Shown: positions 3,287 through 19,409 of the stretch, piece after piece
Numbering within the stretch: the stretch's first letter is position 1
Layout: the number at the start of each line of letters is the position of its first letter
Source of the DNA: Rhodococcus sp. BP22
GTDB lineage: Bacteria > Actinomycetota > Actinomycetes > Mycobacteriales > Mycobacteriaceae
Direction: 5' to 3'
Length of the DNA stretch: 64,000 bases
Assembly: GCF_014281965.1 (NCBI RefSeq)
Contig: NZ_JACFTB010000002.1
Location: 248,001 to 312,000, forward strand
Notes under the pieces: model-generated
Told to the model about the DNA's origin: nothing
Databases searched by the model: none
Seen by the model: the letters and a program-made list of their open reading frames with translations, nothing else
Made by a program: the position numbers and the translations under genes

Positions 3287-3449
3287 AAGACCTCATCACC
3301 TCCTGTGGACTAGTGAAAACGGCCACGGACTATCCGTGGCAGGAGGGTCGTTGCGTCAGCAACCCTTGGAGGGTACACGGCTATACCCTGACCTGCGAAA
3401 TCAAACGACGGTGCCAGAGCACACTCGGCGGCAACATAGGCTTGTCTTC

Positions 3450-4859
3450 ATGCGATCAGGGCAACGCACGTCGATGGCGACCATGGTCGCAGTGGTGTCC
3501 CTCTGTGCCCTGACCCTGACTCTCGGCTACTTCAACAAGGCCCGCTGCGCCGTCGCTCCATTCCTCGACAACGGTCGCAGTACCGCCTTCGACACGGTCA
3601 AGGACAGTTGGGTCTGCTATTCCGATATCCAATTCTTGTGGCTCGGACGCGATATCGACAATCACGTCTTTCCTTACCTCAGCGGTGGCATCACGCCCAA
3701 CGGAATTCTCACCGGCGGGACCGTCGAATATCCGGTATTGAGCGGTCTATTGATGTGGCTCGGTGCGATCCCATCACATACCGACGCAGAATTTCTGCTC
3801 TATTCGAGTGCACTGCTTGCACCGTTCGGCCTGTTGACAGCGTGGATGCTCGGGCGTCTTGCAGGCAAGCCTGCGCTGTTGTGGTCGGTCGGTCCTCCGC
3901 TGGTGCTCTACGCATTCCACAACTGGGAACTACCGGTGGTGGCAGCGGCCGTCGGCGCCGTATTCGTCATGGCCCTTCGAATTCCGTTGCGCACCAGAGG
4001 GATACTGGCCGCAATTCTGCTCGCGATCGGATTCTGCCTCAAGCTGTATCCGGGTGCATTCGTGCTGCCACTACTCCTCTACGTCGCCTACGGTGGGAAC
4101 GGCGGTCGCGAACTACCAAACACGGTTCGAGGTCGGTTCGACATTCAGGGCGCGCTCGGCGTTGCAATGGCAGCGATCGGCACCGTCGTCGCAATCAACC
4201 TTCCCTTTGCCGTACTGGGCTACGAGGGTTGGCGGGCCTCGTTCGCCTTCCAAACTCTCCGCCAAGCCGATATCACCACCAACTCCGTTTGGTATTGGGG
4301 AGTGCGTCACCTCTACATCACCGATTCCATGACGCCGGAGGATTATCTTCGCGCCGAAGCGTCGTTCCAGGACACCGTCGATGTGTTGTCACCGCTGCTC
4401 GTTTTCATGGCATTCGGGTTGGCACTGTGGCTCGGCCTGCGGAAGATGAAGGTGGAACACACCTACCCCTGGATCGCTGTCAGTGGCTCGATGCTGTGCG
4501 GATTCCTACTCCTGCACAAGGTGCACTCACCGCAGTACACCCTTTGGCTTGTTCCGTTCTTCGTTCTTCTCCGCGTGCCATGGGCCCTGGTCGGTGCGTA
4601 CTTGGTGGCAGACCTGTCGATGGGCATCGGGGTGTTCAAGTACTTCGGAGCGCTGACCGAGGGTTCGGACAGCACTACCGAGAAAGTTTTCGTCGAGGTG
4701 GGGGTCTGGGGACGTGCAGTGTTGCTCGTCGTCTTCTTCTTCGTCTTCCTCCGCGCCGGGCTACGAAACCCCGGGCTGACACAGCCGGCAGACGCTGGCG
4801 GTGGATCTGACACGGGGACGTCGAAGGCGGACATGCGGAGCAACGCGCCGACCCAGTAA
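3450..4859 (+). CDS. GT87-type integral membrane glycosyltransferase (DUF2029), paralogue of the one beside ponA
   Basis: This is a polytopic membrane protein of about 469 residues. It is likely a polyprenyl-phosphate-sugar dependent mannosyl/arabinosyl transferase of family GT87, acting on lipoglycan or arabinogalactan at the outer face of the membrane. Signature patches are CYSDIQFLWLGRDI, VEYPVLSG and LKLYPGAFVLP, and SPQYTLWLVPFF near the C terminus. The open frame extends upstream to 3336, but the family begins at the first membrane segment, so ATG 3450 (MRSGQRTSM) is preferred; its ribosome binding site is weak. It shares the CYSD...FPY...EYPVLSG and SPQY.LWLVP blocks with the protein at 17826-19409. 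Substrate unknown. Confidence 0.85.
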   Translation: MRSGQRTSMATMVAVVSLCALTLTLGYFNKARCAVAPFLDNGRSTAFDTVKDSWVCYSDIQFLWLGRDIDNHVFPYLSGGITPNGILTGGTVEYPVLSGLLMWLGAIPSHTDAEFLLYSSALLAPFGLLTAWMLGRLAGKPALLWSVGPPLVLYAFHNWELPVVAAAVGAVFVMALRIPLRTRGILAAILLAIGFCLKLYPGAFVLPLLLYVAYGGNGGRELPNTVRGRFDIQGALGVAMAAIGTVVAINLPFAVLGYEGWRASFAFQTLRQADITTNSVWYWGVRHLYITDSMTPEDYLRAEASFQDTVDVLSPLLVFMAFGLALWLGLRKMKVEHTYPWIAVSGSMLCGFLLLHKVHSPQYTLWLVPFFVLLRVPWALVGAYLVADLSMGIGVFKYFGALTEGSDSTTEKVFVEVGVWGRAVLLVVFFFVFLRAGLRNPGLTQPADAGGGSDTGTSKADMRSNAPTQ

Positions 4860-6632: not shown

Positions 6633-7730
6633 TTACACCGTGAGTTTCGTGTCCTCACCCTGCTCGACCAGCTTCTTGTTGCGCCTGATACTGCTGATCA
6701 GAGCAGCGCCGATGAACAGAATGCCGACGAAGCCGGTGATCAGCTCGTTGATCTCCACTCCGATCGACACCAGCAAAATTATCGCCAGTGCGCCGATGGC
6801 CCAGTGCGCACCATGTTCGAGGTAGACGTAATCGGACAGCGTGCCCTTGCGGACCAGGAACACCGTGATGGATCGGACGAACATCGCACCGATGAATCCG
6901 AGGCCGAGGGCGATGATGATCGGGTCCGCGGTGATCGCGAAAGCGCCGATGACACCGTCGAACGAGAACGACGCGTCGAGGACCTCGAGGTAGAGGAACA
7001 GGAAGAACCCGGCCTTGCCGGTCGCCTTGGCCAGTTCGCTCGGACCACTCGATCCCTCTTCGCCCTCTTCGTCGGTATGGAACAACTCACCCAGTCCGTT
7101 GACGGCGATGTAGGTGATCATGCCGAGCACGCCGGCGACCATGACCGTGGAAATCTTGTCGTCGTCGGCGAGGAACTCCGCGCTGAGCACCAGCAGCAGA
7201 CCTGCCACGACGACAGCGAGCTGGTCGAGCTTGCCGATCCTGGCCAACGGCTTCTCGAGCCAGCTCAGCCAGGTGATCTCGCGGTGCTCGAAAATGAATC
7301 CGAGGAACAGCATCAGCAGGAACATGCCACCGAACGCAGCAATCTGAGGATGCGCGTCGGTGAGGAGGGTCTCGTAGCTGGGACTGCCGTCGGGGAAGGT
7401 CGCAGCATCGTTCTCCGGCGGATTGAGTGCAAGTTGAATCGCTGCGACGGGTCCGAGACCGGATGCGGCCCAGACGATGACGAGCGGGAAGAGCAACCGC
7501 ATACCGAACACCGCGATGACAATGCCGACGGTCAAGAATATCTTCTGCCAGAATTCGCTCATCCGGCGAAGCACGGTGGCATTGATGACCGCGTTGTCGA
7601 ACGACAACGACACTTCGAGGACACCAAGAATCAAGACGAGAATCATCGCCTCGAGACCGCCGTAGAGGAAGGCGACGATCACCGAAACAATCGTGACTCC
7701 GATGGACCATCCGAATATCCGTAGAACCAC
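6633..7730 (-). CDS. DUF475 (TerC-like) integral membrane protein
   Basis: About 365 residues and eight or more membrane segments. Two related half-site motifs, LEVSLSFDNAV near the N terminus and LDASFSFDGVIGAF in the C-terminal half, carry the acidic residues typical of the TerC superfamily, which is linked to metal-ion export or to anchoring TerD-type proteins. GTG 7730 (MVLRIFGWSIG) is preferred over ATG 7766, because AGAAAGG precedes it and the family begins this way. The gene lies downstream of terD in the same orientation, but a terminator-like hairpin separates them. Role in tellurite or metal stress is by family only. Confidence 0.9.
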   Translation of the reverse strand: MVLRIFGWSIGVTIVSVIVAFLYGGLEAMILVLILGVLEVSLSFDNAVINATVLRRMSEFWQKIFLTVGIVIAVFGMRLLFPLVIVWAASGLGPVAAIQLALNPPENDAATFPDGSPSYETLLTDAHPQIAAFGGMFLLMLFLGFIFEHREITWLSWLEKPLARIGKLDQLAVVVAGLLLVLSAEFLADDDKISTVMVAGVLGMITYIAVNGLGELFHTDEEGEEGSSGPSELAKATGKAGFFLFLYLEVLDASFSFDGVIGAFAITADPIIIALGLGFIGAMFVRSITVFLVRKGTLSDYVYLEHGAHWAIGALAIILLVSIGVEINELITGFVGILFIGAALISSIRRNKKLVEQGEDTKLTV

Positions 7731-7766
7731 TGTCGGTGGCCTTTCTCTTGGCGGCAATAAAAACAA

Positions 7767-7838: not shown

Positions 7839-8414
7839 CTAGACGTTCACGCCGAAGTCACGAGCGATTCCGGCGAGGCCGGAGGCGTAGCCCTGGCCCA
7901 CGGCACGGAACTTCCACTCGGCACCGTTGCGGTACAGCTCACCGAAAACCATGGCGGTCTCGGTGGAGGCGTCCTCGCTGAGGTCGTAGCGAGCGAGTTC
8001 GGAGTTGTCGGCCTGGTTCAGTACGCGAATGAACGCGTTGCGCACCTGCCCGAACGACTGCGAACGCGCATCGGCGTCGTAGATCGAGACGGGGAAGGTG
8101 ATCGTTTCGATCTCCGGCGGGACAGCGGCAAGATCGACCTTGATCTGCTCGTCGTCGCCCTCACCCTCACCTGTGGTGTTGTCACCGGTGTGCTCGATCG
8201 AACCGTCGGGGGACTTGAGGTTGTTGAAGAACACGAAGTGTCCGTCGCTCAGTGCCTTCTTCGTCGAGTTCAGCGCAATGGCGCTGGCGTCGAGGTCGAA
8301 GTCCGTTCCGGTCGTCGTTCGAATGTCCCAACCGAGTCCGACCGTGACCGCGGTCAGGTTCGGAGCTGCCTTGGTGAGTGAAACATTGCCGCCCTTGCTG
8401 AGGCTGACGCCCAT
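7839..8414 (-). CDS. terD: TerD-family calcium-binding stress protein
   Basis: A 191-residue cytoplasmic protein of the TerD/TerE/TerZ family of tellurite and general stress proteins. It starts [15 protein letters not shown], the classic family opening. It keeps both calcium-binding motifs: [10 protein letters not shown] (about residue 39) and the loop [13 protein letters not shown] (about 77-89), plus [10 protein letters not shown] near the end. It is transcribed away from the helical-protein gene at 8581, with a 166-base divergent promoter region between them. It may equally be called terE or terZ; these paralogues cannot be told apart by reading. Confidence 0.95.
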
Positions 8415-8580
8415 GTCTGTCCTTTCGTGTGGATTCCGCTACGACTTTCCACCGTAGTGGTCATCTGTCCGATTTGTGAGGAGCTCGCGGTCACACCGCA
8501 GGCCCGATCCTGTTTGTCACAGTTGCACTACGGCAACGTGCACACCACGGCGGGAAGTTCCCGTCAGTACTATCGAGCGG

Positions 8581-9780
8581 GTGACAAGTCGCTGGCCTGG
8601 GGCCTTCCGCCGCGGAGGTGGATCGGAGTCTGCTGCGCGCGCAGCACAGGAGAGCGCCGTCGCTGCCTTCCTCGACATGGACAAACGACAGTCGATCGCA
8701 TCCACGGGTGTCGACGCAATCCGGGCATTGACTCCGGCACGCGACATAACGTCGTTATGGAACAAGACCGAGAAGAAGTGTTTCGAAGCCGGGGCCGCCT
8801 ACTTGGCGGCGGTGGATCAGTTCGACGGCCTCACCACTCCCGCAGCACAGAACGCATTCGACGCGGCGACGCGTGCGCTGGGCGAGGCATGCCACGCTGT
8901 CGACGAGTTCTACCAAGCGCACCGAATCGACCTCGAACAAGCACGTTCCGCGCTCGCCGCTACCCCGCGCCTTGCTCAGGATGCCAAGGCTCTTGCCGAG
9001 AAGGCCCAGTTGGCCGTCGCTGCCGCCGACGACAGCTTCACCGACTACCCGTCGATACGAGCGGCATGGCAGACACTCGACGCCGGCGTGGCCACCCTCG
9101 ACCGCGCCACCGCGGCGAACGACGCTCTGGGCGTCCGAAATGCCGCCGCCGCAGTTCGTGAAGCCGCAGCAGCGCTGGAGGCTGCAGTCGAGGCCGCTCC
9201 GGCCCGGGCCAAGGAAGCGCGCTCGGCTCTCTCGTCGGTCCGCACCCGCCTCGAGGCTGTCCGCACACGCTTCGAACGACTCGCACCCGCCTTCTCGACG
9301 TTGCTCCGCGAGTTCAATGTCGCCAGCTCGGCCGACCTCTCGGCCAACGAGCACATGAGCGCCCGATACATCGAGCAGGCCTCGGAAGACCTCGCCGCCG
9401 CGCGGGCGGCCGCCGACGCCGGCAACCCCGAACAGACTCTCGACTACATCGCGCAGGCTCGCGCGCGCCTCTCCGACGCCGAGGCCCTTGTCGACGCCGT
9501 CACCGATCGGGTCGAATTGCTGCGTGCGGTGAAGGCGAACCCACGGGAGAAGGAACGGGCGGTACGTTTCACGTTGCGAGACGCACAACAGTTGGCTGTG
9601 AACCGTGGTCTGGTTGCCGAGTGGGGATCGGTGTTGGATGCTCAGCTGGCTCGAATCGAGAGAGCGAGCACTGCGTTGTCCGGCACTCACCCCGATTACT
9701 GGTCCTATCTGCAAGATCTGAATACCATTTCGGGCTTCATCTCCGGGGTTGTCGACAGGATGCGAGGCTCGGCTCGCTGA
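8581..9780 (+). CDS. Alpha-helical protein of unknown function in the Ter block
   Basis: About 399 residues, very rich in Ala, Arg, Glu and Asp. Long heptad-like helices run from about 60 to 330 (ARSALAATPRLAQDAKALAE, DLAAARAAADAGNPEQTLDY). No signal peptide, membrane segment or catalytic motif is seen. The C-terminal 60 residues (HPDYWSYLQDLNTISGFISG) look like a separate, more conserved patch. The frame is open from 8476; GTG 8581 (MTSRWPGAFRRGGG) is a reasonable start but is not backed by a strong ribosome binding site. It stands first in a run of co-directional genes that continues with the CitE-like lyase 47 bases later. I do not recognise the family. Confidence 0.75.
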   Translation: MTSRWPGAFRRGGGSESAARAAQESAVAAFLDMDKRQSIASTGVDAIRALTPARDITSLWNKTEKKCFEAGAAYLAAVDQFDGLTTPAAQNAFDAATRALGEACHAVDEFYQAHRIDLEQARSALAATPRLAQDAKALAEKAQLAVAAADDSFTDYPSIRAAWQTLDAGVATLDRATAANDALGVRNAAAAVREAAAALEAAVEAAPARAKEARSALSSVRTRLEAVRTRFERLAPAFSTLLREFNVASSADLSANEHMSARYIEQASEDLAAARAAADAGNPEQTLDYIAQARARLSDAEALVDAVTDRVELLRAVKANPREKERAVRFTLRDAQQLAVNRGLVAEWGSVLDAQLARIERASTALSGTHPDYWSYLQDLNTISGFISGVVDRMRGSAR

Positions 9781-9827
9781 TTGCCGAACTCCAGAATTCA
9801 TTTGCTCACGAACGCTAAGGACGCCCG

Positions 9828-10985
9828 GTGCAACACTTTCGACATCTCGATCCCGCAGTGCACGACGCACTGTTCTTCCGGCCACCCAAGAACATTCCCG
9901 TCGACGCGGACATCGTCAGTGTCGCAACGGCACTCGGCGCGACGCTGTATATGCCGGCAACACGAACCGATCTGACGGCGACGTTGATCAAACGCAGCCG
10001 CATGGGCGTCTGCTCCTTGGTCATCGACCTCGAAGATGCCGTAGCCGATCACGATCTCGAAGAAGCACTCACCAACGCCGTGCGGACACTCGACGAGCTG
10101 GCCACGGACGAGGACCTCACCGCGTTGGTCTTCGTCCGGGCCCGTACTCCGGAGCACATTCGCAGGATCTGTTCCGAGATCGCTCACGGTGCCGCCTCCC
10201 TCGCCGGTTTCGTGGTGCCCAAGTTCACCGCAGCCAACGGCGCCTCCTTCCTCGACGCCATCGCCGCCGGTTCGAGCGAGCACGGCAAGCGACTGTTCGC
10301 GATGCCAGTTCTCGAATCCGCCGAGGTCGTATTCCGAGAGACTCGCGACACCGAACTCGTCGCGGTACGAGAACTGCTTCTGGCACACAGTGACCGAGTA
10401 CTCGCGGTGCGCATCGGCGCCACCGACATGTGCGGCATGTTCGGTATCCGCCGCGACCGGGACCTGACCATCTACGACGTACGCGTCGTCGCCGACGTCA
10501 TCAGCGCCATCGTCAACCACCTCGGGCGCAACAACGGAACCGGATTCGTCATCACCGGACCGGTATGGGAGTACTTCGCCGATCACGAACGCATGTTCCG
10601 TCCCATGCTCAGACAGACCCCGTTCGTCGAACCCGGGGCAGTGCGATTTCGGCAGCAGCTCGTCAGCAGTGACCTCGATGCTCTCCTTCGCGAAGTCGCA
10701 TTGGACCGCGCCAACGGTGTTCAAGGAAAGACGGTAATTCACCCGTCTCACGTTCCAGCTGTACATGCACTGTCCGCAGTCACACACGAGGAGTACCACG
10801 ATGCGCTCGACATCTTGGAATCCGACACCGGCGGTGTCCGAGCTTCGGGTTACGGTAACAAGATGAACGAGCTTGGACCACATCGCAACTGGGCGAGCCA
10901 AACATTGCTGCGTGCCGATGCTTTCGGCGTCACCAACGAAAAGATCACATTCGTGGACGTACTCACCGCTCTGGCGGACCGATGA
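9828..10985 (+). CDS. CitE/HpcH-like TIM-barrel C-C bond lyase of the Ter-associated type
   Basis: A 385-residue protein with the acid-rich signature VIDLEDAVADHD (about 65-76), an internal PVLESAEVVFRE block, RIGATDMCGMFG and a C-terminal QGKTVIHPSHV that is typical of citrate-lyase beta-subunit enzymes. These use a divalent metal to make or break C-C bonds of acyl compounds. The GTG start at 9828 follows CTAAGGA. It overlaps the phosphoribosyltransferase gene by ATGA, so the two are translationally coupled. Pairing with PRTases and a HAD phosphatase beside terD is the arrangement described for Ter-linked biosynthetic modules (Pfam C-C_Bond_Lyase). The substrate is unknown. Confidence 0.85.
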   Translation: MQHFRHLDPAVHDALFFRPPKNIPVDADIVSVATALGATLYMPATRTDLTATLIKRSRMGVCSLVIDLEDAVADHDLEEALTNAVRTLDELATDEDLTALVFVRARTPEHIRRICSEIAHGAASLAGFVVPKFTAANGASFLDAIAAGSSEHGKRLFAMPVLESAEVVFRETRDTELVAVRELLLAHSDRVLAVRIGATDMCGMFGIRRDRDLTIYDVRVVADVISAIVNHLGRNNGTGFVITGPVWEYFADHERMFRPMLRQTPFVEPGAVRFRQQLVSSDLDALLREVALDRANGVQGKTVIHPSHVPAVHALSAVTHEEYHDALDILESDTGGVRASGYGNKMNELGPHRNWASQTLLRADAFGVTNEKITFVDVLTALADR

Positions 10986-13309
10986 ACAACCCGACCGACG
11001 GAATCAGAGTCACCGGCACCGGGACGTCCTCGGAGTGGTCGGTAGAGCAACTCGTCCGCCCCGGATTGCGTCGAAACCCCAGGCGTGCACATCTGTTGGT
11101 GTCCGAGGTGCTCGGAAAACACATACCGGTCGACCCCGAACTCGTGACCGCCGCGGCGGACCAACTGGGGACGCTCGTACTCGACGCGGTCGGCGGATCG
11201 GACGTCGTCGTGCTCGGGTTCGCCGAAACTGCAACAGGTTTGGGACATGGCGTCGCAGCGCGACTCAACGCATATTCCTACCTCCATTCGACGCGTCGCG
11301 ATGTGCCGGGCCTCGAGGTGTACGGCGAGTTCCAAGAAGGCCATTCACACGCGACGGATCACAAACTGCTGCCGACGTCCGCGGATGTCCTGGCCGTCCC
11401 ACTTCCGCTAGTGCTTGTCGACGACGAGATATCCACCGGTAAAACGGCACTGGAAGCAATCCGTTCGGTCCACGCCGTTACGCCGCGGGCACATTACGTG
11501 ATCGCCTCGCTCGTCGACATGCGAAGCGAGGAGCACATTCTCGAGACCGAAGCCGTCGCGACCGAACTCGGCGTCACCATCGTCAGCGTGAGCCTCGCGC
11601 AGGGCAGCGTCGAGCTGGCCGACGGACTCGTCGGTGACGTGACCGGACTACCGGACCCGACGTTCAATCCTGCCGCGGAGACGGCGGGCACCGTGACCCG
11701 CCTCGATGTGGATTGGCCCGCAACCGTTCCCGACGGCGGCCGTCACGGCTTCCTCTCCTTCGACACTCCGGCCTTCGAGAACGCGATCGCTCACGTTGCC
11801 ACGCGAGTCGAGACCGTCGTGCCCGCCGGCAGACCCGTAGTGGTCCTCGGTCACGAGGAATTGATGTACCTGCCACTTCGCCTCGCGCTGATCCTCCGCG
11901 CGGGTGGCCATCCGGCATTGTTCCAAACTACCACTCGCTCACCTGCTTACGTTCTCGATACACCGAACTATCCGCTGCGTCGCGGCTTCCAGTTTCTGGC
12001 GCCGGAGGACGGCGAACCCGAGGCTCGGTATGTCTACAACGCCGACGGCCCGGAGAATGCGTTGCTGATTCTCGTGGTCGACGAGCCTGCAGACACCGAC
12101 CGTCTGTTCGGCGAAGGTGGTGCCGCTCGCACTCTCGCCGCGTCCGGCGCCGATGTCCTCGTCGTCGTCATCACCGGTGCCGATCCGGTGGCTCTCGCAG
12201 TATCGCGCCGGGCAGTGCCCCTGACCGGGCCCGCATTCGGTTCCTACGCCCCTGGTGAGGTGACGTGGCTGCTCAAGGACCTCTCCGGCATCGAGCTCGA
12301 AGCCGATGTCGGTGAGCGAGAGAAGCGAATTCAGGCCGGCACAGCGCACTATGCCGAATCGCTGCCCGTAGAGTTTCAGCCCGATCTCGCGTACCGTGAA
12401 TTGTTCGAAGAAGTCCTGCAGGACAGTGCTTCTCGTCTGGCAGTCGCAGTCGGCACCGTCACCGAACTCGTTCTGGCCGAGCGCGGGCACGACATCGCCC
12501 TCGCCTCCTTGGCACGGGCCGGCACACCGATCGGGATCCTGATGCGCCGATGGGCACACCATGCGCACGGACTCGAACTGCCGCACTATGCCCTCTCGAT
12601 CGTCCGCGACCGTGGAATCGATACTGTCGCACTCAAATACCTCGCAGACAATCATGATCCCCGGTCGGTCGTCTTCGTGGACGGCTGGACGGGCAAAGGT
12701 GCCATCGCCCGCGAATTGACAGCTGCGCTCGCGGCATTCGAGGGCGCAGAGTTCAACAGCGAACTCGCAGTTCTGGCCGACCCCGGCCACTGCGCGCGGA
12801 CCTACGGCACGCGCGATGATTTCCTCATCGCATCTGCCTGCCTCAATTCGACGGTCTCCGGTCTCGTCTCCCGGACGGTCCTCAACCGCGACCTGATCGA
12901 CGACGGCGAATTCCACGGTGCCAAGTACTACGCCGACCTTGCACCGGACGACGTGTCCAATCACCTTCTCGACACCGTGTCAGCACAATTCGATGCGGTA
13001 CGCGAGGATGTCGCCCGATCGGTCACCGCAGTATCGAACTCCGATCGCACCCCGACCTGGACCGGATGGGCTTCGGTGGAGAAGGTCCGCGAAGAGTTCG
13101 GGATCTCGCATGTCAATTTCGTCAAACCCGGTGTAGGAGAAACCACACGAGTACTTCTCCGGCGAATTCCATGGCGGATTCTCGTGCGCGAGCTCGACGC
13201 CCCCGAGCACCGGCATATCCGAATGTTGGCTGCCGCCAGAGATGTTCCGGTGCTCGAGGTACCGGACCTCGCATATTCGTGCATGGGCCTGATCAAGGAT
13301 GTCACGTGA
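10982..13309 (+). CDS. Double phosphoribosyltransferase fusion (PRTase_2-TRSP plus PRTase_1/StiP-PELOTA_1)
   Basis: A 775-residue fusion. The first half is a PRTase with the PRPP-binding loop VLVDDEISTGKTA (about 145-156) and a following domain containing the literal TRSP motif (318-321). The second half starts near 459 (ESLPVEFQP, typical of the PRTase_1/StiP family). It has a second nucleotide-sugar loop VFVDGWTGKG (about 564-573) and ends in a small domain (about 690-775, FGISHVNFVKPG to the C terminus) that fits PELOTA_1. These are more often separate proteins. It overlaps the lyase gene by 4 bases and the HAD gene by 4 bases. A nucleoside-like product is predicted from the families, not shown. 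Confidence 0.88.
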   Translation: MNNPTDGIRVTGTGTSSEWSVEQLVRPGLRRNPRRAHLLVSEVLGKHIPVDPELVTAAADQLGTLVLDAVGGSDVVVLGFAETATGLGHGVAARLNAYSYLHSTRRDVPGLEVYGEFQEGHSHATDHKLLPTSADVLAVPLPLVLVDDEISTGKTALEAIRSVHAVTPRAHYVIASLVDMRSEEHILETEAVATELGVTIVSVSLAQGSVELADGLVGDVTGLPDPTFNPAAETAGTVTRLDVDWPATVPDGGRHGFLSFDTPAFENAIAHVATRVETVVPAGRPVVVLGHEELMYLPLRLALILRAGGHPALFQTTTRSPAYVLDTPNYPLRRGFQFLAPEDGEPEARYVYNADGPENALLILVVDEPADTDRLFGEGGAARTLAASGADVLVVVITGADPVALAVSRRAVPLTGPAFGSYAPGEVTWLLKDLSGIELEADVGEREKRIQAGTAHYAESLPVEFQPDLAYRELFEEVLQDSASRLAVAVGTVTELVLAERGHDIALASLARAGTPIGILMRRWAHHAHGLELPHYALSIVRDRGIDTVALKYLADNHDPRSVVFVDGWTGKGAIARELTAALAAFEGAEFNSELAVLADPGHCARTYGTRDDFLIASACLNSTVSGLVSRTVLNRDLIDDGEFHGAKYYADLAPDDVSNHLLDTVSAQFDAVREDVARSVTAVSNSDRTPTWTGWASVEKVREEFGISHVNFVKPGVGETTRVLLRRIPWRILVRELDAPEHRHIRMLAAARDVPVLEVPDLAYSCMGLIKDVT

Positions 13310-14154
13310 ACACCCTCGTAGCGGTCGACCTGGACCGAACGATGATCTTCTCCGCAGCCGCGTTGGGGTTCGAGGTCGACGACACCGTGGTCTGCGTCGA
13401 AATGTTCGAGAGAGCGCCACTGTCCTACATGACCACCGCTGCCGCCGAGTCGCTCCGCACCCTGACTGCCGATGCCGTCGTGGTGCCGACGACGACACGC
13501 ACGATCGAGCAATTCCAGCGAATCTCACTGCCCGGTGCGCCGTGGCGATTCTCGATCACGAGCAACGGCGGCAACATCCTCGTCGACGGTGAACCCGACC
13601 GTGCATGGCGCGCCGGTTTCTCGGACATCGATCTCGGCGGGGTCCGCGAGGAACTGACGCGTCGAACGGGCGGCGACTGGGTTCTCAAGCGTCGGACTGC
13701 GGACGATCTTTTCTGCTACCTCGTCGTCGAACCCGCAGCGGTTCCGCCCGAATTTCTCGCGGACTGGTCTTCGTGGTGTGCCGCGCGTGGATGGAACGTC
13801 TCGCAACAGGGACGCAAGATTTACACGATGCCCGACGTCGTCTGCAAGAATCGCGCCGTCGCCGAAGTTCTCACGCGCTGCATCGACGACGGCGTTCTCG
13901 ACGTCGGGGCCCTCACGCTTGCTGCGGGCGACGGCGCACTCGATGCAGACATGCTCATTACCGCCGACCGGTCCATCAGGCCGCGGCACGGAGAGCTGGA
14001 GGCGATGAACTTCCAGCACGACGGGTTGGTGGTCACGACGTCGGCGGGTGGTCTCGCAGGCGAGGAGATCCTCACCTGGCTGCATGCCGAGACGGCTCGA
14101 GAAGTCGATGGAACCATCCATGCGTCCGCTGCGTCGAACAAGGCAAGGGGTTGA
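13306..14154 (+). CDS. HAD-superfamily phosphatase of the Ter-associated module
   Basis: 282 residues. HAD motif I is AVDLDRT (nucleophile Asp8, general acid Asp10), motif II is PTTTR (61-65), Lys181 fits motif III, and motif IV is GDGALDADM (208-216). The insert between motifs II and III resembles the cap of sugar- or nucleotide-phosphate phosphatases. The GTG start at 13306 overlaps the PRTase stop (GTGA). It likely removes a phosphate from the product of the two upstream enzymes. The frame is open from 13066, but that part is only the shadow of the previous gene. Confidence 0.87.
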   Translation: MNTLVAVDLDRTMIFSAAALGFEVDDTVVCVEMFERAPLSYMTTAAAESLRTLTADAVVVPTTTRTIEQFQRISLPGAPWRFSITSNGGNILVDGEPDRAWRAGFSDIDLGGVREELTRRTGGDWVLKRRTADDLFCYLVVEPAAVPPEFLADWSSWCAARGWNVSQQGRKIYTMPDVVCKNRAVAEVLTRCIDDGVLDVGALTLAAGDGALDADMLITADRSIRPRHGELEAMNFQHDGLVVTTSAGGLAGEEILTWLHAETAREVDGTIHASAASNKARG

Positions 14155-14282
14155 CGCACACACGGGGGTACAGGCATGGGCTGGGGAAGAACGGGCTCGA
14201 AAGGTAGGCCCTGGACGGGCGCGGATCGTGTTGCATCCGCGGAATCGGGTTCTACGCCGACGCATGTTCCGGAGCACCAGGC

Positions 14283-15743
14283 ATGAGCGGTGATCCTTCG
14301 GAAGAACTGCAGCAGACCCTGCGCACACTCGAGAGCATCAGCGGGTTCGGTGACATGTCGGCGCAGGAGTTCGGCGATCTGACTCGCGCCGTCATCTATC
14401 AAGAGCGAGACAGTTACGCGTACGGCGGAGGCTACGAGCCCAAGGCAGTGTTCGACGACGACCCGTTCGATGCAATGTCGCATGGGGAGATCTTCGGGAA
14501 AGTCGAGCAGTTCCAACCTGAACGGGCCGGGGAGTCCTCCAACAACTGGCGAGCGATCGGAGCCCACGCGGCCGAGGGCGCCGATCAGTTCGCTCAGGCA
14601 ATGGCCACGGTGAACAGCACCAGCTGGCAGGGCCCATCAGCCACCGCCGCAGTCGACGGTGTGCAGGCGTACACGAAGTCGACCGCAGAGTTGAAGACGA
14701 CTGCGCATCTCGTGGCGAACAAGCTGCTCGAGGCATATACGGGTCTTCAGCAGACCAAGGCGAGCGTTCCGCCTCCGCTGCCTACCGGCCCGTTCGAGAA
14801 AGTGCTCGACGCGACTCCTGGTTTTCTCGTGCCCGGTGCGTTGAAGCAGGCCCAATACGCACGTGAAGAGGCCGAAGAAGCTGCGCGCCAGGTCATGCGC
14901 AGTGTGTACATGCCGGTCGTGCATCAATCCGACGACCAAGTTCCGATTCTGCCGACCGCGCTCGATCCGGTCACCGACGGTGGCGCGGGTGACGCTGGCA
15001 GGTACCGACCGGGTACCAAGGGCCTCGGCTTCGATGCGCAACCCATTCCTCGAGCGGACGCTTCGGCCACCGGGCCCGGATCCGGCAATGGTGCTTCGGG
15101 GCAGACCGGTTCACCTGCCTCCGACGGCGGTGCTCTTCGATCTCCCGCATCGGATGCTCGGGACACCGGGACAGAGGCGTCGAGTTGGGCGCCCGGTGAG
15201 GCACCACAGTCGACGCAGCCGCCGACCGGTCCGGCAGGGGCGCAGCAAGGGTCCAATGCCCCCTCCGGATCATCACCAGCGGGGTCCTCACCCGGTGGCT
15301 CGGTTCTGGGCAGCCCACTCGGTGGTCCCCGAGCTTCTGGTCCAGGCGGTTCTGGTCCAGGCGGGTCAGGTGCCGGCGGCTCAGGTTCCCGGGGCGGCAG
15401 TTCAGGCGGTACCGGTTCTCGGTTCGGCGGGGGCTCCGGCGGTACGGGCTCGGGGTCGGGCATGGGTGGGTTCAATCGCCCTGGGGTCGGCGGCTCGGTT
15501 CTCGGGGCTCCTGGCCAGGGCGGTACCGCGGCTGGGGGCCAGGGATCGACCGGAGGATCCGGTACGGCCGCCGGCCGTGCCGGTACCCCGGGAATGGGCG
15601 GAATGTCGCCTGGCGCAGGTCGCGGTGGGCCGGGGGGCGCAGACGACGTCCACAAGACGCCCGGCTATCTGGTCGATGCCGTCAATGGAGACGAATTGAT
15701 CGGCACGCTGCCACTTGTCGTTCCACCGGTGCTCGGCGGGTGA
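14283..15743 (+). CDS. PPE/WXG-like protein with a long Gly/Ser/Pro-rich tail, predicted type VII secretion substrate
   Basis: 486 residues. The N-terminal 210 residues are helical, with a WXG-type turn STSWQGPSA (Trp115, Gly117) and the helices around it expected of PPE-like proteins (MSHGEIFGKVEQFQPERAGE before, SATAAVDGVQAYTKS after). Residues about 240-455 are low-complexity Gly/Ser/Pro/Ala. A short conserved-looking tail, TPGYLVDAVNGDELIGTLP, ends the protein. No Sec signal is seen. Its stop overlaps the start of an EspG-type gene, the chaperone of PPE proteins, which strongly supports the assignment. No ESX core gene is in the window. Confidence 0.75.
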   Translation: MSGDPSEELQQTLRTLESISGFGDMSAQEFGDLTRAVIYQERDSYAYGGGYEPKAVFDDDPFDAMSHGEIFGKVEQFQPERAGESSNNWRAIGAHAAEGADQFAQAMATVNSTSWQGPSATAAVDGVQAYTKSTAELKTTAHLVANKLLEAYTGLQQTKASVPPPLPTGPFEKVLDATPGFLVPGALKQAQYAREEAEEAARQVMRSVYMPVVHQSDDQVPILPTALDPVTDGGAGDAGRYRPGTKGLGFDAQPIPRADASATGPGSGNGASGQTGSPASDGGALRSPASDARDTGTEASSWAPGEAPQSTQPPTGPAGAQQGSNAPSGSSPAGSSPGGSVLGSPLGGPRASGPGGSGPGGSGAGGSGSRGGSSGGTGSRFGGGSGGTGSGSGMGGFNRPGVGGSVLGAPGQGGTAAGGQGSTGGSGTAAGRAGTPGMGGMSPGAGRGGPGGADDVHKTPGYLVDAVNGDELIGTLPLVVPPVLGG

Positions 15744-16516
15744 AAGAGCGCGAGTGGACCATGACCGGCCTCGAGTTTCGGGTCATGATGGAACAGTTCG
15801 GGCGCGATCGATTGCCGTTCCCACTGCAAATTCGTGCGACGGCAAGCTCGGCAGCCGAATATCACCGTCAATGCCACGAGGCGTCGATAGGCATCGCGAC
15901 GAAGATGGACGAAGACCTGCGCGAGGCCGGACGGATCCTTCTCGACCCGCGGTTTCGAATCGAAGTCGTCGGCCATACGAGGAGCACGAGTGCAGCCGAC
16001 GGTTCCGGGGACGTCAAGATCCGTGGCCATGCCGCGATCCGACACGACAGTGCAGCGGTGCTGATCCAACAACCCGGACTCGATGATTCCTCCGGCGGCC
16101 CGGTGACGGTTCGCTTGGTCGCCTCGTATCGCGCCGTGAATCGAGTGCTGGACGCACTGCCCGAAGCCCCGAAGGGCACCAACCCCCGCATCGACATCCC
16201 GCGGTCTTCTCCGATCGGACAATCGACCGCGAACTCGGTCGTGTTCGAGAACGCCACAGGGTCGACCTCCAAGGAGCACTTCGATCGGCTTCTGGGCCGA
16301 CGTCGAACCAGCGCAGGCGAAATCCTCGTCTGCCCTGGCAAAGCCACCGACAATCGAGTGGAAAAGGACTTGGCTGGTTTTCACTGGGTGGACAACGCCG
16401 ATGACGGTCGATACCTGGTCCGGTCCGGTTCTACTGTCAGCGTCATTCCCGCCTCCGATTCCGACGTGGCCGCGGAAGTCCGAAGGCTGGCCACAGAGTT
16501 GGCAGCCGAGACCTGA
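15740..16516 (+). CDS. EspG-type ESX secretion chaperone
   Basis: 258 residues, the usual EspG length. The N terminus (WTMTGLEFRVMMEQFGRDRL) and the pattern of alternating strands (FRIEVVGHTR, IRGHAAIRHDSAAVLIQQ) and C-terminal helix (VAAEVRRLATELAAE) fit the EspG fold. EspG binds the tip of PPE-type substrates in the cytosol and delivers them to the type VII machinery. The start GTG 15740 overlaps the stop of the PPE-like gene (GTGA), so the pair is translationally coupled. It sits inside the Ter block, away from any ESX locus. Confidence 0.8.
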   Translation: MKEREWTMTGLEFRVMMEQFGRDRLPFPLQIRATASSAAEYHRQCHEASIGIATKMDEDLREAGRILLDPRFRIEVVGHTRSTSAADGSGDVKIRGHAAIRHDSAAVLIQQPGLDDSSGGPVTVRLVASYRAVNRVLDALPEAPKGTNPRIDIPRSSPIGQSTANSVVFENATGSTSKEHFDRLLGRRRTSAGEILVCPGKATDNRVEKDLAGFHWVDNADDGRYLVRSGSTVSVIPASDSDVAAEVRRLATELAAET

Positions 16517-16608
16517 AGCCGGGAACTTCGTCCACAGCATTCGGACATTTCGACCCAGTACATTGGTGTGCGCACTTCACGACCCGCTCTCATCGAAAAG
16601 GACACACA

Positions 16609-17829
16609 TTGTCTGCTCCAGCCGGTCAGCCCTTGGCGAAGGGACAAAACGGTCCGATCACCGTGAACAACGTGGTCGTATCCGTGCAGCTCAGCGCTCC
16701 TGCCGACCTGTCGGCACTTCTGGTAACCGGGGACGGCAAAGTCCGCACCGACGCGGACTTCGTCTTCTTCAATCAGCCGACCGGACCTGGTGTTCGTCTG
16801 GCCCCCGGTGCCGCTGGACAACCCGGACAGTTGTCGATTGCGCTGACCGAGATCCCCGCCGACATCGAACAGATCCGCGCAGTCATCACCCTCGACGACG
16901 CTTCGAGCAGCTTCGGCCGAGCCGCCCCACCGACCGCTCGCATCGCCGACGCGCAGGGCAATGTGTTGTACGAGTACGTCGTCGACGGCCTGAGCAGTGA
17001 GTCCATCGTGATCGCTGTGGAGGTGTACCGACGCTCGGGCACGTGGAAAGTTCGGGCAGTAGGACAGGGCTACTCCGGTGGTTTCGCCGCATTGGTCACC
17101 GACCACGGTGTGTCCGTCGACGATGCTCCCACCGCGCAACCGGCAACCCCGGCTCCTCCCGTACCGACACCACCCGCACCGACACCACCCGCACCGACAC
17201 CACCGCCGTCAGGCCCATCCGAGGTCAGTTTGACGAAAGCCCGTCCGGTCAGCTTGACCAAGGGTCAGAAGGTCACCCTGCGCAAGGACGGTGGCGTCGC
17301 GCTGACGAAGATCCGGATGGGTCTGGGATGGGACCCGGTGGCCGCACCCAAGAAGACCGGCTTCTTCGGCGGTGGCGGACGCAGTGGGGCCATCGACCTG
17401 GACGCGTCGGCGATCATGTTCGCCGGGCGCAACGTGGCAGACGTCGTGTATTACGGCCAGCTGAAGGCCAAGGACGGGTCGATCCTGCATCAGGGCGACA
17501 ACCTGACCGGCGCCGGCGAGGGCGACGACGAGGTAGTGAACGTCGACCTCACTCGTGTTCCCGCGAATGTGACGGCGATCGTGTTCACGGTGACCTCGTA
17601 CCGAGGACAAACTTTCGAGCAGGTCGAGAACGCATTCTGCCGCCTCGTCGACGACACCAACAACGCCGAGCTCGCCCGCTTCACGCTCCAGGGCGGGATG
17701 CCGTTCACCGGCCTCGTCATGGCAAAGGTCTACCGCGAGGGTGGTAACTGGAAGCTTCAGGCAATCGGTGACGGCATCGCCGCCAAGCACGCAGGCGAAG
17801 CCGTTCCGCATCTCGGCAAGTACATCTAG
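16609..17829 (+). CDS. terA: TerA-like protein with two TerD domains
   Basis: 406 residues. The TTG start at 16609 follows AAAGGACACACA. Domain 1 (about 1-170) keeps the TerD shape (DADFVFFNQ, VRAVGQGYSGG) but lacks both calcium motifs. A Pro/Thr/Ala linker (PTPPAPTPPAPTPP, about 184-204) follows. Domain 2 (about 205-406) is complete, with AIDLDASAIMF and GDNLTGAGEGDDE. This degenerate-plus-intact pair matches TerA-type members. Its TAG stop shares CTAG with the stop of the convergent GT87 gene. It likely acts with the TerD protein at 7839 in stress protection. Confidence 0.88.
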   Translation: MSAPAGQPLAKGQNGPITVNNVVVSVQLSAPADLSALLVTGDGKVRTDADFVFFNQPTGPGVRLAPGAAGQPGQLSIALTEIPADIEQIRAVITLDDASSSFGRAAPPTARIADAQGNVLYEYVVDGLSSESIVIAVEVYRRSGTWKVRAVGQGYSGGFAALVTDHGVSVDDAPTAQPATPAPPVPTPPAPTPPAPTPPPSGPSEVSLTKARPVSLTKGQKVTLRKDGGVALTKIRMGLGWDPVAAPKKTGFFGGGGRSGAIDLDASAIMFAGRNVADVVYYGQLKAKDGSILHQGDNLTGAGEGDDEVVNVDLTRVPANVTAIVFTVTSYRGQTFEQVENAFCRLVDDTNNAELARFTLQGGMPFTGLVMAKVYREGGNWKLQAIGDGIAAKHAGEAVPHLGKYI

Positions 17830-19409
17830 TCCACTCGCATGGGCACGGAAACCGCCTGCGGTGCGGTGGTTTTCGTGACCCGATGCGTATCCGGCGCATG
17901 GTCGAGCACTCCGCCCACCGGATCGTCCACCCCGCCCAGTCTCACGAGATCCTCGTCCGGACGATAGATCTGCCGAACTATCAACGCGCACAGTGCGATC
18001 ACGGCAATGTCACGCACGACGACGGTAGCGGTGAACCACTGCTCCGGGACGCCCTTGTCGGCGACACCGAGGTAGTAGTACATCCGGGGGAACCAGACGA
18101 AGGCGTCGATCGCCATCCAGGCCAACAGCACTCTTCGATGCGGTAGCGCGAGCACAGCCAGCGGCACGAGCCACAGTGAGTACTGCGGACTCCACACCTT
18201 GTTGGTCAGCAGGAACCCGGCGACGACGAGGAAGCTCAGCTGCGCCAATCGCGGACGCATCGGAGCATTCATCGCGATGTAGGCGATACCGGCGCACACG
18301 GCAACGAACAGCACCATTGTGACGGTGTTGAGAAACAGCGGTTTGTCACCCGGGTACAAGGTTCCGTCGAATCCACTCCATCCGGTGAACGACGAGATGA
18401 CGTTGTAGATCGAATCCGGGTCGGCAGCGCGCGTGGAGTTGAGCCGAAAGAACTCCGACCATCCGCTCGGAAACAGGAGTGCGATAGGAAGATTGACAGC
18501 CAGCCACGCCCCCAGCGCGGCACCGGCGGTCAGAGACCATTCGCGCATTTTCCCAGCGCGCCAACACAATACGAGCAGCGGGCCGAGGAGAAGCAGGGGA
18601 TACAACTTGGTCGCGCCGCCGAGACCGAGCAGAACACCGGCCAGTACGGGTCGCTTCTTACCCCAAGCCAAGATTCCTACGGCAGCGAAAGCTGTTGCCA
18701 AAGCATCGAAATTGGTGAAACCGTGCACGATGACCAGTGGTGAACCTGCCACGAGGGCCGCATCCCAGATGCGCCGGCCGGCCGACATCGCTGTCGCCCA
18801 GACGGTGACCAACCATGCAAGGGCCAACCCGATCGCGACGACATTGAAGTAGATCACCACCGAGAGCGCCTGCGGCAGCCAGGAGATCGAGCTCCATGCC
18901 TTGGCCACGACCATCGAGCCGTACTGATACATCCCCGACAGGACCGGATACTCCATGTAGCGAATCTGAGTGGTTCCGTCCGCGGCCACTTCTTCCCACG
19001 ACTTCTTGTACGGGAAGGCACCCTGATCCAAGCGCTCTGCGCCGTACAACGGAACTGTGTCGGAATAGCACATTGCAACGTACTGGCGGCTGCCACTCCA
19101 GTCGAGACCGAGCGATCCCTCTGGTCCGTTGGGCGCCTGTTGAATACAGCCGGCCTTGGCGAACCAACCGAAGCTCAGGAACAGCACGGCGAGGAGCAAC
19201 ACCACCCGAAGCGGCGTCAGAAATCGCTGCCGGCCGATCAGTGCGTGCTTCCCCGCCGATCCACCGATGACCGCAGCGAACTCTGCGGTCATCGGGTCGT
19301 TCGCGCCCGGGAGATCTCGGGCTACGTTCGAGGAGCGGTCGGGTGCCAACGGCCCCGGGCTCGCGACGACTTTCCTCGCCCCGGGTTCGATGGCTCTGTC
19401 GTCGCTCAC
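17826..19409 (-). CDS. GT87-type membrane glycosyltransferase beside ponA (Rv0051-like)
   Basis: 527 residues with about ten membrane segments after a polar N terminus of about 60 residues. Conserved blocks are CYSDTVPLYG, YMEYPVLSGMY, ATKLYPLLLLGP and WSPQYSLWLVPLAVL, shared with the paralogue at 3450-4859. By family it is a polyprenyl-phosphosugar-dependent transferase of cell-envelope glycan or lipoglycan synthesis. It starts 9 bases after the ponA stop, in the same orientation, as Rv0051 follows ponA1 in M. tuberculosis. Donor and acceptor are not known. Confidence 0.88.
   Translation of the reverse strand: MSDDRAIEPGARKVVASPGPLAPDRSSNVARDLPGANDPMTAEFAAVIGGSAGKHALIGRQRFLTPLRVVLLLAVLFLSFGWFAKAGCIQQAPNGPEGSLGLDWSGSRQYVAMCYSDTVPLYGAERLDQGAFPYKKSWEEVAADGTTQIRYMEYPVLSGMYQYGSMVVAKAWSSISWLPQALSVVIYFNVVAIGLALAWLVTVWATAMSAGRRIWDAALVAGSPLVIVHGFTNFDALATAFAAVGILAWGKKRPVLAGVLLGLGGATKLYPLLLLGPLLVLCWRAGKMREWSLTAGAALGAWLAVNLPIALLFPSGWSEFFRLNSTRAADPDSIYNVISSFTGWSGFDGTLYPGDKPLFLNTVTMVLFVAVCAGIAYIAMNAPMRPRLAQLSFLVVAGFLLTNKVWSPQYSLWLVPLAVLALPHRRVLLAWMAIDAFVWFPRMYYYLGVADKGVPEQWFTATVVVRDIAVIALCALIVRQIYRPDEDLVRLGGVDDPVGGVLDHAPDTHRVTKTTAPQAVSVPMRVD

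Follow-up and report, generated by a model that had tools for sequence, protein, structure and literature searches.

The question raised by positions 8581-14154 of a 64,000-nucleotide stretch of Rhodococcus sp. BP22 (contig NZ_JACFTB010000002.1; hereafter the window) was whether a predicted Ter-linked biosynthetic module that has no gene for an ATP-grasp ligase is a reduced version of the system or its ordinary form. A CitE-like lyase, a four-domain fusion protein, a HAD phosphatase and an all-helical protein (HEL) recurred together as a conserved group next to TerD, TerC-like and TerA genes, with no ATP-grasp gene among them. Fifty-four actinobacterial loci were compared after removal of duplicates; two were tiny cut contigs (L089 and L091), leaving 52 uncut loci with a full-length StiP domain. 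Short loci (L001-L031), already counted genomes, plasmid loci (L032-L035), Firmicutes loci and the divergent loci L070-L072 were kept apart from this set, and alignment A3 was alignment A1 rebuilt without six rows (L092, part of which was out of frame, and five others). HEL, the lyase, the phosphoribosyltransferase (PRTase), StiP and the HAD protein were present in all 52 uncut loci, and a local profile found an ATP-grasp gene beside the module in none of them. The module is a known predicted one, and the missing ATP-grasp is usual in the phylum. The genes and domains of the locus were the following.

6633..7766, minus strand: TerC-like membrane protein (DUF475/TerC); Pfam PF04332, 441.7 bits (cut-off 27), and PF03741, 53.7 bits (cut-off 27.8).
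7839..8414, minus strand: TerD; Pfam PF02342, 280.7 bits.
8581..9780, plus strand: HEL, all-helical, 399 aa; alignment of 20 rows and predicted model, no Pfam family over cut-off.
9828..10985, plus strand: CitE-like lyase (C-C_Bond_Lyase); Pfam PF15617, 399.7 bits.
10982..13309, plus strand: four-domain fusion PRTase_2-TRSP-StiP-PELOTA, 775 aa; each domain over its Pfam cut-off.
11051..11605, plus strand: PRTase_2 domain, APRT/XPRT-type fold with a VDDExSTGxT phosphoribosyl pyrophosphate (PRPP) loop; Pfam, 211.3 bits.
11732..12106, plus strand: TRSP domain; PF12500, 103.3 bits.
12239..12979, plus strand: StiP domain; PF11202, 344.6 bits.
13058..13297, plus strand: PELOTA_1 domain; PF15608, 115.4 bits.
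13306..14154, plus strand: HAD phosphatase, MPGP/trehalose-phosphatase-like; weak NCBIfam TIGR01486 match, PDB 6cj0/6d3v, motifs.
14283..15743, plus strand: PPE-domain protein with a Gly/Pro-rich tail, predicted type VII substrate; PF00823, 28.3 bits (cut-off 26).
15740..16516, plus strand: EspG-family chaperone, gene overlapping the PPE gene by 4 bases; PF14011, 80.8 bits, over cut-off.
16609..17829, plus strand: TerA-like protein; PF02342, 268.2 bits over two TerD stretches.

The open reading frames (ORFs) of 8581..14154 were confirmed at the positions given by the first-pass annotation. Six plus-strand genes (HEL, lyase, fusion, HAD, PPE and EspG) lie between the minus-strand TerC-like/TerD pair and the plus-strand TerA-like gene. 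The lyase, PRTase_2-TRSP, StiP-PELOTA_1, TerD and DUF475/TerC families scored above their curated Pfam cut-offs, with the HAD gene in the same run, so the assignment to a Ter-linked predicted biosynthetic module stands. Its Ter neighbours were also borne out as linked genes, except that TerA is not adjacent, the PPE and EspG genes (14283-16516, same strand) intervening. The 4-base overlaps behind the proposed translational coupling were confirmed for lyase/fusion (10982-10985) and fusion/HAD (13306-13309) but not for the HEL gene, separated from the lyase by 47 bases. These overlaps were kept in 41/53 lyase-PRTase and 40/55 PELOTA-HAD pairs compared, and HEL and lyase overlapped in 7 of 35 comparable pairs. 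No TerB was found in the window locus or in the other rhodococcal loci with a local profile built from few seeds, and promoter and terminator scans of the locus gave counts no higher than chance.

The intergenic gaps within 8581-17829 were 47, 128 and 92 bases, too short to leave room for an ATP-grasp gene; no profile matched in the block either, so a hidden copy was rejected and the reported absence upheld. A second ATP-grasp profile (6 seeds), applied together with a TelA profile (2 seeds) to the ORFs from loci up to L101, matched only genes of Shewanella, Pseudomonas and Paenibacillus, plus a weak match in L001. Among 37 genomes of the window's genus (Rhodococcus/Rhodococcoides), all of them StiP-positive, ATPgrasp_Ter was never found near StiP. 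PF15632 was over cut-off in six, four of these matches being an ORF of >1100 aa on a contig other than that of StiP and the remaining two (G010, 36.3 bits; G024, 29.9 bits) lying >370 kb from StiP. The genome search suggested earlier thus yielded no convincing PF15632 copy in the genus, other ATP-grasp families being outside the genome-wide search. In 17 other StiP-positive genomes of the phylum, PF15632 was over cut-off in nine and strong (≥117 bits) in seven, always distant from StiP or on another contig.

An ATP-grasp enzyme encoded elsewhere could complete the pathway in trans, and a strong ATPgrasp_Ter match (E ≤ 1e-20) in 35/101 genomes of a Streptomyces-type genus, so named for its gene order equal to that of Streptomyces loci L087-L090, would speak for it. 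StiP was present in 100 of these genomes; 34 of the 35 matches fell in StiP-positive ones, whereas 66/100 StiP-positive genomes lacked a strong match and the single StiP-negative genome (G461) had one. In G059, 4.7 Mb separated the copy from StiP, and local profiles found no Ter gene around the four ATPgrasp_Ter copies read (L102-L105). Together with the lack of a convincing PF15632 copy in the window's genus, these data on the ATPgrasp_Ter family made completion in trans very unlikely. The neighbours scanned around the L104 copy were a GH4 glycosidase, a calcineurin-like phosphoesterase and regulators.

Outside Actinobacteria, where the survey was thin (four Firmicutes and three Proteobacteria loci), the module had an ATP-grasp gene at its side in both gammaproteobacterial loci read and in one of the four Firmicutes loci; none was found in the other three. 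Because it accompanies the module only in some loci, and in none of the 52 actinobacterial ones, ATP-grasp looks like an optional tailoring enzyme. The idea that the window holds a reduced or alternative version peculiar to itself was consequently not maintained.

The identity of the CitE-like lyase was corroborated by its PF15617 score; it also matched PDB 3qll ('citrate lyase') at E 8e-4, with conserved LED and KTxIHP motifs. The fusion was a single ORF in 39 of the 52 uncut loci and two ORFs in the other 13. Described in the first-pass annotation as a double PRTase, it could be confirmed as such only in part: the PRTase_2 domain has the PRTase fold and PRPP loop of a type I enzyme, but the chain also holds TRSP, StiP and PELOTA, and profiles gave StiP no support as a PRTase. 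By eye, the StiP motifs RAG, HYxxSIxR and DGWTGKG resemble PRTase loops, the last keeping one acid where the PRPP loop of type I PRTases has two. As a second PRTase StiP found no confirmation: neither hhalign against PRTase_2 nor a PDB profile search returned anything, and the first domain took up the list of PDB matches for the whole-fusion model. The name of the family, 'cysteine protease StiP', also fared poorly, as no invariant Cys column appeared among 15 diverse sequences of PF11202; the two common cysteines were substituted in some Proteobacteria, and one of them also in Gordonia (L086). A cysteine protease would be expected to have an invariant catalytic cysteine, and the alignment makes the family label doubtful.

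For the HAD protein, the phosphatase call was retained at superfamily level but not at family level. No Pfam family matched at E 0.1 and the best NCBIfam match (TIGR01486, E 1.4e-4, 21.3 bits) was far below its cut-off of 164.75, whereas the motifs D8xD10xT12 (DxDxT) and GD209xxxD213 (GDxxxD) were conserved and PDB 6cj0/6d3v, deposited as trehalose phosphatase, matched at E 4.7e-6. These two structures, its best PDB relatives, also matched the HAD protein of the Shewanella Ter module at E 3e-45, so that a relative of the Ter HAD family has been solved.

Taken together, we tentatively favour, with slightly less than even confidence, an actinobacterial version of the Ter biosynthetic module that makes a nucleoside- or nucleotide-like signal, with HEL as a scaffold. 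The APRT/XPRT-type PRTase would couple PRPP to a purine-like or related base, the base or a side chain would be reworked by StiP and the CitE-like lyase, and the HAD enzyme would take off the phosphate to yield that signal. In the two Gammaproteobacteria and the single Firmicutes locus where it was found, ATP-grasp would add an amino-acid-like group; in Actinobacteria this tailoring step would be absent and the simpler core product used. TerD and TerA proteins may sense the product at the membrane together with the TerC-like protein, above a sub-membrane scaffold of HEL, a role that TelA, missing here, is thought to fill elsewhere. In agreement with the first-pass annotation, no product was identified in the consulted parts of the literature, a set that does not include the founding 2012 paper.

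The same enzymes might instead repair, salvage or destroy a nucleotide- or RNA-derived compound, with PELOTA bringing RNA, the PRTase and StiP acting on the base, the HAD protein dephosphorylating and the lyase degrading the carbon skeleton. PRTase reactions are reversible, PELOTA_1 is described in Pfam as RNA-binding, and in the PDB the lyase is closest to citrate and malyl-CoA lyases, all of which would suit such a role. However, linkage to TerD, TerC and TerA genes, seen also in the rhodococcal loci read, better suits a product that is sensed, and PMC7824862 models the module as biosynthetic. We consider salvage or repair unlikely, though it deserves weight.

The first-pass annotation had noted an unrecognised helical protein at the head of the run. 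It remains outside any Pfam family over cut-off, but it is not an odd extra: in a survey of 396 genomes of the phylum, with four candidates scored per genome, HEL and the lyase had an identical distribution, in the same 16 genomes. In Actinobacteria, HEL regularly accompanies the module. Its GTG start at 8581 coincides with the onset of conservation (an alternative in-frame start lies at 8476), and its predicted model (pLDDT 92) is helical throughout, which excludes HEL as an ATP-grasp. The only PADLOC match, of HEL to JetC (2.2e-5), was attributed to coiled coil and not accepted as homology.

HEL could also be a highly diverged TelA, both being long helical proteins (360-400 aa) of Ter loci; TelA was found in two of the four Firmicutes loci, where there is no HEL, and not in the remaining loci searched. 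Pfam TelA (PF05816) does not match HEL, however, and comparison of profiles by hhalign gave a probability of 0.1%, with only two TelA rows, so a TelA identity of HEL finds no support and this origin appears quite unlikely. The nearest solved fold was EzrA, a spectrin-like protein of Firmicutes cell division; many HEL proteins of the Streptomyces-type genus share with it a hydrophobic segment at the N-terminus. The Z score was nevertheless at background for helical models and the score against PF06160 (13.8 bits) was under the cut-off of 39.6; there was no evidence of a division role for HEL. The background level of the EzrA match slightly lowers the confidence in the favoured reading and in the distinct actinobacterial circuit considered below, and makes repair or salvage a little likelier.

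Comparison with other Ter systems showed what is shared and what differs. The Shewanella (L034) and Pseudomonas (L035) plasmids have PRTase, HAD, StiP-PELOTA and C-C_Bond_Lyase in one run adjoining TerD, TerB and TerC genes; unlike in the window, the run starts with ATPgrasp_Ter (126 and 138 bits), PRTase and StiP have a gene each, the order differs and no HEL was found. Next to the ATP-grasp gene of the Pseudomonas locus (L035:13700-14839), a TerD stretch is fused to a trypsin-like peptidase. The Prescottella equi plasmid p1-WH99 (L032) resembles the window in its HEL homologue (a 'hypothetical protein'), lyase, PRTase, StiP, HAD, TerD and DUF475 genes and in having no ATP-grasp, and differs in its separate PRTase and StiP genes, in the presence of TerB and a TerF-like VWA protein and in the absence of PPE-EspG. 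Bacillus (L095) and Paenibacillus (L097) share the lyase, PRTase, StiP-PELOTA and HAD with TerD genes, but carry TelA (366 and 107 bits) with YceG in Bacillus or ATP-grasp in Paenibacillus, and no HEL was found. A Rhizobium plasmid locus has only PRTase, StiP-PELOTA and HAD, without ATP-grasp. Loci L070-L072 form a divergent actinobacterial variant with a TerD run, PRTase and a partial divergent StiP, in which no lyase, HEL or ATP-grasp was found.

The surroundings point to a settled chromosomal locus that looks fixed on one side. In the 23 rhodococcal loci read, the TerA side was followed by a GT87 gene in 22 and a PBP gene in 21, whereas the flank on the TerC side of the window (a second GT87 gene and rpsF) recurred in 14. 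The two GT87-like genes flanking the locus (3336-4859 and 17826-19409) show weak mutual similarity (33% over 133 aa). Between 4927 and 6611, convergent with the TerC-like gene, three plus-strand ORFs have NarL/LuxR-type helix-turn-helix (HTH) ends by eye, one a full response regulator and two short; they are possible regulators. The response regulator was found in 10/23 rhodococcal loci, and one or both of the short ORFs in 23/23.

The PPE-EspG pair, missed in the first-pass annotation, sits inside the Ter run on the same strand; in 14 of 19 loci its two genes overlap by 4 bases. EspG occurred in all 37 genomes of the genus, ≤6 kb from StiP in 29. A second EspG-PPE pair lies 218 kb away on the window's contig (L106, C12 ~481860-482594), near a histidine-phosphatase gene, and one EccB was found in the genome, on another contig. 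PMC4791881 shows three rhodococci with one mark each, taken as ESX-4, and has espG, pe and ppe acquired only once Rhodococcus had split off; the presence of EspG in 37/37 rhodococci sits uneasily with that timing. A single literature search on the subject turned up no paper joining Ter loci and type VII secretion.

The pair might be the working end of the system, Ter stress signalling tuning the export of one predicted type VII substrate in rhodococci. Strand, overlap and proximity to StiP favour this, as do terminator-like sites no more frequent than chance. On the other hand, none of the Nocardia, Gordonia and Streptomyces-type loci read showed the pair, nor was it near StiP in 8/37 rhodococci, one of them (G018) with broken contigs; it therefore cannot be the core function. 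A working end of this kind seems distinctly unlikely. Rather unlikely, too, is a distinct actinobacterial Ter circuit in which an unligated nucleotide-like signal, made by the lyase, the fusion and the HAD enzyme and acting through a new, obligate HEL scaffold that replaces TelA, controls the PPE-EspG pair in rhodococci; if true, chemical-stress sensing would be tied to export across the mycomembrane.

What is new is HEL as a regular partner, the doubt about the StiP label and the presence of PPE-EspG, the founding 2012 paper being outside the comparison. HEL supplies the Ter system with a defined, unnamed partner, and the PPE-EspG genes suggest that Ter loci are connected with type VII secretion. 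What the Ter enzymes make is a long-standing question, and the lyase, fusion and HAD genes appear to be the minimal set with which to search for the core compound, in a version free of ATP-grasp that is universal in the sampled, tractable genus of the window and near-universal in the Streptomyces-type genus.
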